41,293 nucleotides of DNA from Promethearchaeota archaeon (GTDB lineage: Archaea > Asgardarchaeota > Lokiarchaeia > Sigyniarchaeales > SOKP01), in assembly GCA_030667705.1 (NCBI GenBank), contig DAOUVJ010000007.1, forward strand, positions 1 to 41,293. Reading direction: 5' to 3'. The notes beneath the pieces were generated by a model. That model saw only the letters and a list, made by a program, of their open reading frames with translations. It had not been told where the DNA came from and made no database searches. Made by a program: the position numbers and the translations under genes. Positions 8,926 through 14,487 of the stretch are shown here, piece after piece. Within the stretch, counting starts at the first letter, position 1; every line of letters starts with the position of its first letter.

Positions 8926-9984
8926 ATGGAACATGAATTAACAGCTAAGGAAATAAAACGATATAAGAAAAGATATATCGGAAAATTAGCAGTAGCAGCT
9001 AAACGTGCGAAAGATTGTGGTGATAGACCTTTCATATTTCATTTTCTTACCACATTAAGATGCAATTGCGATTGTGAATCGTGTCTTTGGAAGGATAATA
9101 CAGCAAAAGGTGAATTATCACTTGAAGAAATTAAACGAATCTATTTAGAAGCAAAAGATGCGGGGTTTATAATGACTGTTCTTTGGGGTGGAGAACCGAC
9201 GCTCCGTAAAGACCTTCCGGATATTATTAAGTTTATAAGAAACAATGCAGAATTTGCCTTTATTGGAATGGTCACAAATGGATATTTAATTCCAAAACAA
9301 ATCCATGAATATGGAAATGACCTTAACTTGATATTAATGTCTCTTGATTCTCCAATTAAGGAAGAACACGATAGAATCCGTTGTTTAAATGGACTTTATG
9401 ATAAAATAATGGAATCTGTAAATATCATCAAGAATGATTTTCCACTCATTTCATTACAGTTCAGTTTTTCTATTAGTAAATATAACATTCATCGCGTTGA
9501 TGAAATGATTGCTTTAGGAGATAAAAATGAAGTTCCGGTTGCCTTCAATGTGATAAACACATTACGTCACTATTCGAGTGGAGATATCGATGAAAAAGGA
9601 ACGTTATCAGCCACAGACGAGGAATTAAGTGCCGTTTTTATTAAAATTTTAGAAGCAAAGAGGAATGGATCAAAAATTTTAAACTCAGAAATGTACTTAA
9701 AGCACTTTATTGGGGGGAAAAAACCATATCGTTGTCACGCAAGAAAAGTTTTCATGTATGTTAATTATAATGGTGATATTGAAAATTGCTTGGAATTAGA
9801 TAAACCAATTGCAAATTTACGAGATATTTCAGTAATAGATGCATTAGAATTGCCAAGTATGAAAAAATTTTTACAAAATGCCGAAAACTGTAGTAGTTGT
9901 AATTCTCCTACGATGATTGATACTAGCTATTTTTGGGAAGATTTGAGTTTATTAACCAAATCTGGTGGTATTTCACTTGGTTAA
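8926..9984 (+). CDS. Radical SAM protein, MoaA/SPASM-like
   Basis: A 352-residue radical SAM enzyme. The cluster motif CNCDCESC supplies Cys46, Cys50 and Cys53 (C-x3-C-x2-C), preceded by the strand FHFLTTLR. The SAM-binding glycine motif is LWGGEPTLRKDLPDII. NLILMSLDSP fits the core barrel strand 4. The C-terminal part has further cysteines (YRCHARKVFMYVNYNGDIENC and CSSC), resembling a partial SPASM or twitch auxiliary-cluster domain. The G-D-I-x-x-C-L spacing is typical of that region. The substrate is unknown. HpnH-type and peptide-modifying enzymes look alike at this level. The next gene is 173 bases downstream on the same strand, so shared transcription is uncertain. Confidence 0.75.
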   Translation: MEHELTAKEIKRYKKRYIGKLAVAAKRAKDCGDRPFIFHFLTTLRCNCDCESCLWKDNTAKGELSLEEIKRIYLEAKDAGFIMTVLWGGEPTLRKDLPDIIKFIRNNAEFAFIGMVTNGYLIPKQIHEYGNDLNLILMSLDSPIKEEHDRIRCLNGLYDKIMESVNIIKNDFPLISLQFSFSISKYNIHRVDEMIALGDKNEVPVAFNVINTLRHYSSGDIDEKGTLSATDEELSAVFIKILEAKRNGSKILNSEMYLKHFIGGKKPYRCHARKVFMYVNYNGDIENCLELDKPIANLRDISVIDALELPSMKKFLQNAENCSSCNSPTMIDTSYFWEDLSLLTKSGGISLG

Positions 9985-10157: not shown

Positions 10158-11444
10158 ATGAAAGATTTAAGAAAAAAATTGGAAATCCCTAAAGATGCCT
10201 TAAAATCTGTTAATGATTTTTTACTTGATGAAAATAATCCTTTGATTAATGACTTATTTAGTGTGATAGATAAATATGGTGGTATCAATGAGATTAATAA
10301 GAAAGCAGAAGAGGCAAGTAAATTAGATAACCTAGTTGATAAAATTAATAAAAAGAATCCCGATTATGTTAAGGATATAGAATGGCTGATAGAGGCTCGT
10401 GATAATCATTCTTTTATAAGTGTTGCTGATTATCGAAGAAAAATATTAGGAGATAAAATATCTGAAATGGAGTTTAACGAGGATTATGCTGTGACTTTAG
10501 AACTTTCAGCATGTCAATATTTTCCTTTCTTGATTGATATAGCTAAAGATGCAGTTGAAAATCAAAAATTAGTCCCTGGTAGAATCATTCGTGTAAGATA
10601 CATGAAAGAACAAGAGGAAGACGGAGATTTACCCGCTATGGCGGCTGCGATGCAAGTTATTGGCGCCACTTGGGTCGAAACTCTTGACACAAAGGGAACT
10701 GCTCCTGGACCAGATGGAATGCCTGTAAATGTACATCTGGGTGGTCCAGACACGATTACTGGTTATTTTGGCGGTGTTGGTCAACCAAATGATTTTGCAA
10801 TTAAATGGATTGATGAGTTCCTATATTATTATACAAACTATGGAATAAAACAAGTTCTCAACGTCAACCCAGGCACGGTCCTTTTGGGTTATTTTATTCA
10901 TAAACTTGGAATTAACAACGAATTTAAAATAAGCGTCTATATGGGTAATGATAACCCCTATTCTTGCCTATGGACTTTACTAACAGCAAAATTATTCGCT
11001 CGAGAAGATGGAACGAGTCCATTAATTGGATTTAACTTATCCAACTCAGTTAATAACGAAACCATTGAAATGGCTGCATATATTCGTAAACCTTTTGGAT
11101 TTGAGGATGTTGTTAGATTGGAACATCACATAACCGAGACATACAAATCAATTGTGCGTCAGCCGTACGATCGTAGAGATGAGTTATTAGAATTAGCAAA
11201 AAACGTCAAGAATATAAGCGCGAAACATGAAGGAGCAAATGTTGCTGTTGATGAAAAGCGGGAACATCCTACTGATATACTAGAATATTTTATGCCTAAA
11301 GAAGAAGTAAAAGAAGCAGGATTATGGGATTATTTTAGAATTAACCATTTAGATCGAAATGATGCCGTTAATTCGACAGCAGAGGCACTAACTAAGAAAG
11401 GATTAACATTTATCGCAGCAAGAAATTTACATCATTATGAATAA
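10158..11444 (+). CDS. Unrecognised 428-residue protein, probably an enzyme
   Basis: I do not recognise this family. The first 80 residues are helical and charged. From about residue 110 the sequence alternates short beta strands and helices in a way compatible with a TIM barrel. Conserved-looking glycine-rich loops include AMAAAMQVIGATWVETLDTKG, HLGGPDTITGYFGGVGQPND, QVLNVNPGTVLLGY, VYMGNDNPYS and IGFNLSNSVNNETI. There is no signal peptide, membrane segment or metal-cluster motif. Its stop lies 20 bases before the DapA-Fae fusion gene, so the two are almost certainly co-transcribed. It probably makes or uses a substrate or product of that fusion (inference). It should be treated as a candidate new enzyme of that pathway. 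Confidence 0.7.
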   Translation: MKDLRKKLEIPKDALKSVNDFLLDENNPLINDLFSVIDKYGGINEINKKAEEASKLDNLVDKINKKNPDYVKDIEWLIEARDNHSFISVADYRRKILGDKISEMEFNEDYAVTLELSACQYFPFLIDIAKDAVENQKLVPGRIIRVRYMKEQEEDGDLPAMAAAMQVIGATWVETLDTKGTAPGPDGMPVNVHLGGPDTITGYFGGVGQPNDFAIKWIDEFLYYYTNYGIKQVLNVNPGTVLLGYFIHKLGINNEFKISVYMGNDNPYSCLWTLLTAKLFAREDGTSPLIGFNLSNSVNNETIEMAAYIRKPFGFEDVVRLEHHITETYKSIVRQPYDRRDELLELAKNVKNISAKHEGANVAVDEKREHPTDILEYFMPKEEVKEAGLWDYFRINHLDRNDAVNSTAEALTKKGLTFIAARNLHHYE

Positions 11445-11464
11445 GCTTAGGAGTGAATAATAAA

Positions 11465-12952
11465 ATGGGAAAATTTGATTTTAGACCAAAAGGAGTAATG
11501 CCTGCAATGGTAACTCCCTTTAATAAAGATGAGTCGATAAACGAAGAACAATTAAGAAATTTAGTTAATCACTTCATTGACCAAGGGGTAACTGGATTAG
11601 TTCCATGTGGAACAACAGGAGAATTCGTCAACATGACTCTTGAAGAGCGATTGAAGGTAATTAAAATAGTGGTTGATGAAACTAACGGTAGAGTACCGGT
11701 AATAGCGGGTACAGGAGAATCCGGAACAAGAATGGTAATTGATTCGAGTAAAGCCGCAACTGATATAGGAGCTGATGCAGTTATCATAGTAACTCCTTAC
11801 TATCTCAAACCAAAAGCTAAGGGGTTGTATGATCATTATTTCACCATAGCCGAAAAAACAGACATTCCAATTGTACTTTATAACATTCCCGTTTGTACTG
11901 GAGTCGAGTTACCTTGGACAGTGGTAGAAGATTTGGTTGATATTGAAAATATTATTGCAATTAAAGATTCTAGTGGAGATTATAAGTATCATTCTGCACT
12001 TTTAGAAAAAGTTAGCGATAAGATTTCAGTCTTGATTGGATGGGATGAGTTAGTGCTGGGTGCATTAGCAGGTGGAGCTGCAGGATGCATCTTGGGATCA
12101 GCGAATGTTATTCCTAAAATATGGCTAGAATTATATGATCACGTTCAAAATAATCGCTTAACAGAAGCTCAAACACTACAAAAAAAGGTACAGAAATTAG
12201 CAAGGATGTTAATCAATTCAGGTGCATTAGGTGCTAAGGAATGCCTTAATTTCATGGGAATACCCGTAGGTATAACGCGTCAACCAATCATTTTAGGAGA
12301 TGCTCTTTCGTACGAGTTAAGAGATGAATTTCGCGTAGAATTAGAAAAATTAGGGTTGATAGAGAAGAAAGAGCTCAAGTTTGAGATTGGAGAAAAAGAA
12401 CTTAGTAGTCGCTTCTACTCTGTTGGTGTTACACCTGAAAAGATAGTCAATTTTGACTTAAAAGTTGGAGAGTCATTAGTAGGAAGTCGGGTAGAGTTAG
12501 CACATGTAGATCTTTTGATTGGAATGAAAGATGGTCCGGTAGGGGAAGGGTATGCAAGAGCATTAACTCATCCTGCTAAAGGAAAGGAAGGATTACAAGT
12601 AATTCTCGAACCAAACATGCAAGTAAAACCCGCAACAGTAATGATTCCGACTGTAAAAGTTACTTCTCTACGCCATGCAAGTTTGACCTATGGACCAGCG
12701 CAAGCTGCAGTTGCTAAAGCAGTCATGAAATGTGTTGAAGATGGAATATTACCAAAAGAAGCTTCTGAAGATATAGTAATAATAGCAAATGTCTTTGTTC
12801 ATCCTAGTGCAAGTAGCCGAAAAAGAGTTTTTATAAACAATTATAAAGCTACGAGAAATGCGATTCGAAAAGCGATGGAAGGTCTTCCTACGGTCGAGGA
12901 TGGAATTCTTTCAGCAGATAATGCTCGTCATCCATTCAGAAACGACCCCTAA
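11465..12952 (+). CDS. DapA-family aldolase fused to formaldehyde-activating enzyme (Fae)
   Basis: A 495-residue two-domain protein. Residues 1 to about 300 are a class I pyruvate aldolase of the DHDPS/KDG-aldolase family: PCGTTGE (47-53), YNIP with Tyr139, and AIKDSS with Schiff-base Lys167. The Arg that DHDPS has after YNxPS is absent (YNIPVCTG), so lysine biosynthesis is unlikely. After a linker (about 303-331), residues 332-495 match Fae throughout. VELAHVDLLIG carries the catalytic-type His347, followed by KPATVMIPTVKV, YGPAQAAVAKAV and EDIVIIANVFVHP. Fae condenses formaldehyde with tetrahydromethanopterin. The start is ATG 11465, because the Shine-Dalgarno TTAGGAG (11447-11453) overlaps the alternative GTG 11453. 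Inference: the aldolase releases or uses formaldehyde, which is channelled to Fae. Confidence 0.88.
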   Translation: MGKFDFRPKGVMPAMVTPFNKDESINEEQLRNLVNHFIDQGVTGLVPCGTTGEFVNMTLEERLKVIKIVVDETNGRVPVIAGTGESGTRMVIDSSKAATDIGADAVIIVTPYYLKPKAKGLYDHYFTIAEKTDIPIVLYNIPVCTGVELPWTVVEDLVDIENIIAIKDSSGDYKYHSALLEKVSDKISVLIGWDELVLGALAGGAAGCILGSANVIPKIWLELYDHVQNNRLTEAQTLQKKVQKLARMLINSGALGAKECLNFMGIPVGITRQPIILGDALSYELRDEFRVELEKLGLIEKKELKFEIGEKELSSRFYSVGVTPEKIVNFDLKVGESLVGSRVELAHVDLLIGMKDGPVGEGYARALTHPAKGKEGLQVILEPNMQVKPATVMIPTVKVTSLRHASLTYGPAQAAVAKAVMKCVEDGILPKEASEDIVIIANVFVHPSASSRKRVFINNYKATRNAIRKAMEGLPTVEDGILSADNARHPFRNDP

Positions 12953-13086: not shown

Positions 13087-14487
13087 ATGAAAGTATTCAT
13101 GGATGATAATTTTCTATTACATACAAAAACCGCTCAATCTCTCTATCACGAACATGCGAAAAAGATGCCAATCTATGATTTTCATGGTCATTTACCTGTT
13201 GAGGATATCGCTAACAATATTAATTTTGATAATATTGGACAAGTATGGCTTGCTGGAGATCATTATAAATGGAGATTAATGCGAACAAATGGAATTGCTG
13301 AACATTTTTGCACAGGAAATGCAACAGACTATGAAAAATTTCAAAAATGGGCAGAAACTGTACCTATATCCATCAGAAATCCCCTTTACCATTGGACTCA
13401 TTTAGAACTCCGTCGATATTTCAGTATTGAAGATTTGTTAAATCCAAACTCTTGTAAAAAAATTTATGATCATTGTTCTAATTTGTTAAAAACGCCCGAG
13501 TATTCGATTAAAAATCTTATAACCATGATGAATGTGAAATTAATATGCACAACAAATGACCCAATCGATACCTTAGAATATCATGAGAAAATTAAGAATG
13601 ATGGCTATGAAGTTAAGATTATTCCAACTTTCAGACCGGATAGAGCAATGAATGTTGAGGATAATGCTAATTTTATAAAATATATTCACAAGTTGAGCGA
13701 AATTTCTGAAATAACGATAGAAGATTTTTCAAGTTTAATGGATGCAATCGAAAATCGTCATAAACACTTCCATGATAATGGTTGTAAAATTTCTGATCAT
13801 GGACTTACTCTATTACACGCAACAAATTATTCAGATAATGATTTAGAAGAGATATTTCGTAAACTACTCTCAAAACAGCCGATATCTGATATAGAAATAT
13901 CCAAATTTAAATCTGCTTTTCTGTATGAAGTTGGGAAATTAAATTATAAGCGTGGATGGGTTCAACAATTCCATATTGGCGCTATTCGTAATGTAAACAC
14001 TCGCTTATTTAATAATTTAGGTCCTGATATTGGCTGTGATACGATTGGAGATTATAATGTTGGTAAAGATTTAGCAAAATTTTTAGATCATCTGGATCAA
14101 TCTGATGAATTAGCTAAAACGGTTATTTATAATCTAAATCCGAGAGATAATGAATTGTTTGCATCCATGATTGGAAACTTTCAAGATGGGACTTTTCCCG
14201 GGAAAATTCAATTTGGTCCAAGTTGGTGGTTTTTGGATCAGATTGATGGTATAACAAAGCAGATTAATGCACTTTCAAATCTGGGCTCATTATATCATTT
14301 TATTGGGATGACTACAGATTCACGAAGCTTTCTTTCTTTTCCAAGACATGAATATTTTAGAAGAATTTTATGTAATATCATTGGTAGTGATGTTGAGAAG
14401 GGATTAATCCCTGCTGATACGAATTTATTAGGAGAAATGGTTGAAAATATTTGTTATAATAACGCTGCTAATTTTTTTGATATGTAA
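13087..14487 (+). CDS. uxaC: Uronate isomerase (glucuronate/galacturonate isomerase)
   Basis: UxaC interconverts D-glucuronate with D-fructuronate, and D-galacturonate with D-tagaturonate. It belongs to the amidohydrolase superfamily. The 466 residues match its usual length. Family signatures are YDFHGHLPVEDIANN (metal-binding HxH near the N-terminus), WLAGDHYKWRLMRTNGI, WTHLELRRYF, TNDPIDTLEYH, WVQQFHIGAIRN, GCDTIGDY, and SRSFLSFPRHEYFRRILCN at the C-terminus. A GAGGAAG Shine-Dalgarno-like stretch precedes the ATG. It follows the DapA-Fae gene by 134 bases on the same strand. No mannonate/altronate oxidoreductase, dehydratase or KDG kinase is nearby. Its link to the fusion is therefore only positional, unless the aldolase domain acts on a uronate-derived 2-keto-3-deoxy acid. 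Confidence 0.88.
   Translation: MKVFMDDNFLLHTKTAQSLYHEHAKKMPIYDFHGHLPVEDIANNINFDNIGQVWLAGDHYKWRLMRTNGIAEHFCTGNATDYEKFQKWAETVPISIRNPLYHWTHLELRRYFSIEDLLNPNSCKKIYDHCSNLLKTPEYSIKNLITMMNVKLICTTNDPIDTLEYHEKIKNDGYEVKIIPTFRPDRAMNVEDNANFIKYIHKLSEISEITIEDFSSLMDAIENRHKHFHDNGCKISDHGLTLLHATNYSDNDLEEIFRKLLSKQPISDIEISKFKSAFLYEVGKLNYKRGWVQQFHIGAIRNVNTRLFNNLGPDIGCDTIGDYNVGKDLAKFLDHLDQSDELAKTVIYNLNPRDNELFASMIGNFQDGTFPGKIQFGPSWWFLDQIDGITKQINALSNLGSLYHFIGMTTDSRSFLSFPRHEYFRRILCNIIGSDVEKGLIPADTNLLGEMVENICYNNAANFFDM

Follow-up and report, generated by a model that had tools for sequence, protein, structure and literature searches.

A pathway through 4-hydroxy-2-oxobutanoate (HOB) has been assembled synthetically by combining cleavage of HOB by PanB with transamination between homoserine and HOB; homoserine dehydrogenase and an aminotransferase belong to it as well (Bouzon et al. 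2017, as described in PMC6966089). The homoserine cycle of He et al. (as described in PMC8879981) shares this metabolite and draws on similar enzymes, among them a pyruvate aldolase that works with formaldehyde. These synthetic-biology reviews label HOB non-natural or non-native (PMC6966089, PMC8879981). A second described system is the archaeal Fae-Hps bifunctional enzyme (NCBIfam NF009833), in which Fae is joined to an aldolase-type domain and formaldehyde passes to tetrahydromethanopterin. Here we describe a gene, X428, and the gene sets that accompany it, starting from a stretch of 41,293 nucleotides from a Promethearchaeota archaeon (the window). Like the two engineered routes, these sets combine a probable HOB node with homoserine dehydrogenase, an aminotransferase and PanB or a pyruvate aldolase, but the engineered routes were built from promiscuous E. 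coli enzymes, whereas the X428 system consists of native parts, in alternative modules, with a new protein family among them. The fusion next to X428, DapA-Fae, resembles Fae-Hps but has a DapA-type aldolase at its N-terminus and a linked X428 gene, whereas the partner domain of Fae-Hps is a C-terminal hexulose-phosphate synthase.

Table 1. Features of X428 and of the DapA-Fae fusion gene downstream of it (nucleotide positions are those of the window)
Feature	Position	Strand	Basis or detail
X428 (working name), unnamed TIM-barrel protein, 428 aa	10158..11444	+	ORF, homologue alignment, predicted structure
X428, N-terminal helical part	residues 1-105		
X428, barrel	about residues 108-420		
X428, invariant motifs			TLExS, RxIRVR, TLDTKGT, HLGGPxTITGYFGGVGQPN, LNxNPGT, FKISVYMGNDNPY, GFNxxN, EHHIxET, SAKHEGG
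AGGAG just after the X428 stop (ribosome-binding site for the fusion gene)	11449..11453	+	sequence
DapA-Fae fusion gene	11465..12952	+	ATG at 11465; frame open from GTG at 11453
DapA/DHDPS-family class I aldolase domain	11486..12292	+	PF00701, E 9.5e-77
Fae domain	12464..12937	+	PF08714, E 8e-55; TIGR03126 above cut-off

A sequence-only reading of the window had placed a 428-residue gene 20 bases ahead of the fusion gene, with the ribosome-binding site of the latter just beyond its stop codon, and the coordinates bear this out (Table 1): the X428 frame comprises 428 codons, open from its ATG to the stop, and the alternative GTG start of the fusion gene overlaps the ribosome-binding site. Compared with three orthologues (79-88% amino acid identity), X428 differs at codon positions 1/2/3 by 53/20/185, 55/21/215 and 92/28/225 nucleotides, a concentration at third positions that indicates a protein under selection, and the approximately 100 positions that are invariant across 43 X428 sequences are as expected of an enzyme. 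In-frame stops in the genome searches look like terminal stops; one such match, in genome G066, ends at the stop codon of its own ORF. X428 had been described as impossible to place in any family, and at the level of direct sequence matches this stands, with nothing in Pfam at E<=1, a chance match alone in NCBIfam (E 0.1) and no relative among PDB sequences; it does not stand for remote homology, as described below.

The TIM barrel suspected from the sequence alone is also what AlphaFold (AF2) predicts. The model, built with 43 homologues (pLDDT 88.8, pTM 0.88), consists of N-terminal helices followed by an eight-stranded beta/alpha barrel, in which a glycine-rich loop (residues 180-205) is modelled with low confidence yet is strongly conserved. 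Structure searches, which had been proposed as a check, returned generic barrels: the best Foldseek match was a class II fructose-bisphosphate aldolase (E 8e-4, TM 0.33), the best matches in a VIA search of the full model were TIM barrels (Z up to 12.3), and the barrel alone (pLDDT 77) found generic barrels only, the best of them (Z 13.3) a designed one. In profile searches, the sole remote homologue was a U32-like TIM-barrel family of ~315 residues (represented by Thermomicrobium roseum WP_012642555.1), reached at E 0.03-0.4 and matched by HHalign at 90% (E 1.6e-6); shuffled controls reached no more than 2.2%, and other barrel families 0.1-1.1%. PanB, at 0.1%, showed no profile homology. The similarity to the U32-like family extends over 259 columns and is anchored on FKISVxMGxxNPx, but that family is about 110 residues shorter, lacks the N-terminal helical domain and is only about 22% identical to X428. 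Its members are annotated as 'U32 family peptidase' and the family itself matches PF01136 (Peptidase U32) partially (E 2.7e-8); PF01136 gave no match in X428 at E<=1 and does not appear among the matches of the 43 homologues. The best explanation is that X428 represents a new family, one that these profiles suggest is remotely related to U32-like barrels.

DapA-type aldolases split 4-hydroxy-2-keto acids, releasing pyruvate together with an aldehyde. The DapA domain in the window retains the Schiff-base lysine (IAIKDSSGD), and the arginine of the DHDPS motif YNVPxRTG, which binds aspartate semialdehyde, is replaced (YNIPVCTG). Among the fusions, the lysine is conserved and the arginine replaced, mostly by cysteine, in every motif class listed, and the histidine of AHxDL is kept in the Fae domains of the classes listed. 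Because the aldolase is fused to Fae, the aldehyde would be formaldehyde, and the keto acid would therefore be HOB. No description of a DapA-Fae fusion turned up in literature searches. Tandem pairs of the fusion occur at five loci (in Thorarchaea, the Asgard genome G083 and Thermoflexia), and in some pairs the Fae domain of one of the two fusions is degenerate (L212_t8, for example, is without the FVHP and NYKATR motifs). Seven genomes of the window's own family that lack X428 contain a Fae-containing frame of 430-460 residues, which is probably Fae-Hps. In the window, the fusion gene is followed by a glucuronate isomerase gene (UxaC, 13087-14487), and X428 is preceded by a gene for a radical SAM/SPASM protein (8926-9984). 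Both are also present in the closest relative, locus L051, and UxaC was not seen at other loci. A different radical SAM gene adjoins X428 in one Chloroflexota genome (G116, locus L151); these radical SAM genes are probably coincidental.

X428 is widespread but patchily distributed. We found homologues with 55-92% identity in 46 of 97 Asgard, 50 of 250 Bathyarchaeia and 30 of 243 Thermoplasmatota genomes, and in 6-8% of Chloroflexota genomes (12/151 in a first sample, about 25/400 in a larger one), and a scan of species genomes yielded at least 485 loci. The closest named relative of the window (92%) is Candidatus Lokiarchaeota bin22 (locus L051). A scan of viral contigs found no relatives, and plasmid records contained one homologue, from Polaromonas (51% identity). 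The Polaromonas gene lies in a cluster with a TRAP transporter, a DapA-type aldolase that has the DHDPS arginine, an FAD oxidase, Ldh-type and Fe alcohol dehydrogenases, an aldehyde dehydrogenase and an SDR; it looks catabolic, resembling non-phosphorylating sugar-acid catabolism, and no known sugar-acid dehydratase was present among the genes scanned.

Across these genomes, X428 is almost always accompanied by one of three modules (neighbours were counted from a non-redundant locus table). The first is DapA-Fae, which adjoins X428 at 15 of 16 loci in Lokiarchaeia, 12 of 20 other Asgard loci, 5 of 25 in Heimdall/Hodarchaeia and, in divergent orientation, 22 of 25 in Bathyarchaeia. The second, at 13 of 15 Chloroflexota loci, is a PanB. 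The third, composed of an aminotransferase, homoserine dehydrogenase and aldehyde:ferredoxin oxidoreductase (AOR), is characteristic of Thermoplasmatota (homoserine dehydrogenase and AOR at 21 of 23 loci, the aminotransferase at 19) and of most Heimdallarchaeia (15 of 25 Heimdall/Hodarchaeia loci, with the aminotransferase at 19). The sequence-only reading had raised the question whether the pairing of X428 with the fusion is conserved. It recurs as counted above in Lokiarchaeia, further Asgard lineages and Bathyarchaeia, but it is not universal; in some lineages other modules replace the fusion. Thorarchaeal X428 genes mostly have an ECF S component (PF07155) just upstream, and tandem DapA-Fae genes were present elsewhere in the three genomes checked. 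In some Asgard genomes of one family (f2), X428 is present but Fae is not, and the third module is only partly represented nearby. Surrounding genes and gene orientation differ between lineages, so plain synteny is not the explanation, and recurrence of the partners in several lineages amid different surroundings rules out chance neighbourhood.

The PanB next to X428 is a divergent paralogue, which we call PanB2. It scores 292.8 bits with TIGR00222 (cut-off 207.55), and nearly all of these Chloroflexota encode a canonical PanB with a far better score elsewhere. PanB, ketopantoate hydroxymethyltransferase, exchanges hydroxymethyl groups between 2-keto acids and folate; its catalytic motifs are present in PanB2 (GDS, GDMP, KLEGG, GHLGL and the catalytic Glu). 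Unlike canonical PanB, PanB2 is a second copy in nearly all genomes and has an altered segment, MSLGSG..HGQ in place of IGIGAG..DGQ.

The modules alternate. DapA-Fae and homoserine dehydrogenase never both occur within 6 kb of X428, and the Bathyarchaeia and Asgard genomes with DapA-Fae that we tested contain no homoserine dehydrogenase, the single exception being the genome from which the window comes, where one lies on a different contig. Each of the 17 X428-positive Thermoplasmatota tested carries a single homoserine dehydrogenase gene, which lies beside X428 wherever the neighbouring genes were read, and the enzyme is absent from six of seven sampled genomes that lack X428, a distribution that suggests a catabolic function in Thermoplasmatota rather than threonine or methionine synthesis. 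Among X428-positive Chloroflexota, the 13 with PanB2 beside X428 contain no Fae domain, and the two without any PanB (G099 and G116) have Fae-containing fusions in tandem. Two Asgard genomes (G082 and G083) that encode DapA-Fae lack X428, and in both of them one of its U32-like relatives adjoins the fusion. U32-like genes are otherwise found in sugar and sugar-acid uptake clusters. At loci L272-L278 and L281-L287 (Chloroflexota and Thermomicrobium), they are linked to ribose-type ABC transporters, enolase-superfamily or Zn-alcohol dehydrogenase genes.

These data provide good support for the idea that X428 and its partner modules act at the same metabolite node, which we consider very likely. 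The sequence-only reading had proposed that X428 makes or consumes the keto acid of the fusion enzyme, and this is now the best-supported reading because, at loci that lack the fusion, its position is occupied by genes that could handle this keto acid. HOB is the single metabolite common to the three modules, with X428 the constant part, and the shared node is probably HOB. Since X428 is almost always beside one of three modules that could handle HOB, it probably carries out the step still missing from a natural version of a one-carbon pathway that has so far been known from synthetic biology alone. In the window, the DapA domain would split HOB into pyruvate and formaldehyde and the fused Fae domain would pass the formaldehyde to tetrahydromethanopterin; in Chloroflexota, PanB2 would fill this role with tetrahydrofolate. 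The aspartate-type aminotransferase, homoserine dehydrogenase and AOR of Thermoplasmatota and most Heimdallarchaeia could convert HOB to oxaloacetate (HOB and aspartate giving homoserine and oxaloacetate, and homoserine returning to aspartate via aspartate semialdehyde).

The substrate of X428 and the direction of its reaction are less certain than the node. The usual roles of AOR, oxidation of aldehydes, and of Fae, capture of formaldehyde, make breakdown of HOB the likelier direction, with X428 as its source, and we tentatively suggest that X428 forms HOB. It would be a soluble TIM-barrel enzyme at the HOB (2-keto-3-deoxytetronate) node, with a HOB-producing lyase as the leading candidate, a reading that we hold short of even confidence. 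Our best single guess at its chemistry is that it possibly dehydrates a C4 sugar acid (for example erythronate or threonate) to HOB, based on the uptake clusters of the U32-like relatives and on the Polaromonas cluster. This dehydratase step is a weak proposal, because the U32-like cluster of T. roseum already contains an enolase-superfamily gene, so that its U32-like enzyme might catalyse something other than dehydration. In archaea, no sugar-acid transporter was found linked to X428, and the ECF S component of Thorarchaea gives no hint of a sugar acid.

HOB formation has to be weighed against the opposite direction, which the same gene sets fit. X428 could consume HOB as the first committed step toward a further product, with DapA-Fae or PanB2 supplying HOB from pyruvate and a C1 unit, or a reversed AOR, homoserine dehydrogenase and aminotransferase supplying it from aspartate. 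The alternation of modules around a constant X428 is compatible with this, and PanB usually works in the condensing direction, but AOR usually oxidises aldehydes, the patchy distribution suits catabolism better, and the Fae-aldolase fusion resembles Fae-Hps, which is understood to trap formaldehyde that has been set free; consumption of HOB is rather unlikely. Less probable again is that X428 makes homoserine, which homoserine dehydrogenase and AOR would oxidise or which would be transaminated to HOB for DapA-Fae or PanB2. The linear order X428-homoserine dehydrogenase-AOR-aminotransferase in most Thermoplasmatota, and the near confinement of homoserine dehydrogenase to X428-positive genomes there, would agree with such a reaction, but the order in Heimdallarchaeia is X428-aminotransferase-homoserine dehydrogenase-AOR, and the first two modules would require an unlinked aminotransferase. 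A role in pantothenate/CoA metabolism at the ketopantoate node, to which the PanB neighbour in Chloroflexota and the vitamin-type ECF S component in Thorarchaea could point, is improbable: it is weakened by the separate canonical PanB that nearly all of these genomes carry, a DapA-type aldolase would not be expected to form ketopantoate, and the third module does not fit. Least probable of all is a role for X428 as the catalytic part of a B12-dependent mutase of the glutamate mutase E type, a relationship suggested by eye and by a structural match that covers almost the entire protein (Z 11.3-11.5, 252 residues) but contradicted by HHalign (1.1% against the GlmE family, no homology to the glutamate mutase epsilon profile), by Z-scores tied with those of unrelated barrels, and by the lack of any riboswitch, cobalamin or other, at the 17 loci searched. 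In the neighbourhoods read, we recognised no B12-binding (sigma) subunit. A PF06368 search among relatives gave short partial matches only, in frames of ~585 residues that are probably another mutase.

We return, therefore, to X428 as a candidate source of HOB. The fact that three unrelated gene sets alternate beside one conserved enzyme suggests that HOB is in natural use in uncultured archaea, including Asgard lineages. We propose, as a possibility rather than a firm conclusion, a native HOB pathway of archaea and Chloroflexota that joins C4 compounds to tetrahydromethanopterin or tetrahydrofolate, in which the committed enzyme belongs to a previously unclassified TIM-barrel family and the neighbouring steps have been solved three times by unrelated gene sets. 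If this is true, X428 would catalyse a reaction that has no assigned enzyme, a function would be provided for a protein family that is present in hundreds of genomes and has no Pfam or NCBIfam name, the DapA-Fae fusion would be explained, and native enzymes would become available for formaldehyde-based synthetic pathways.
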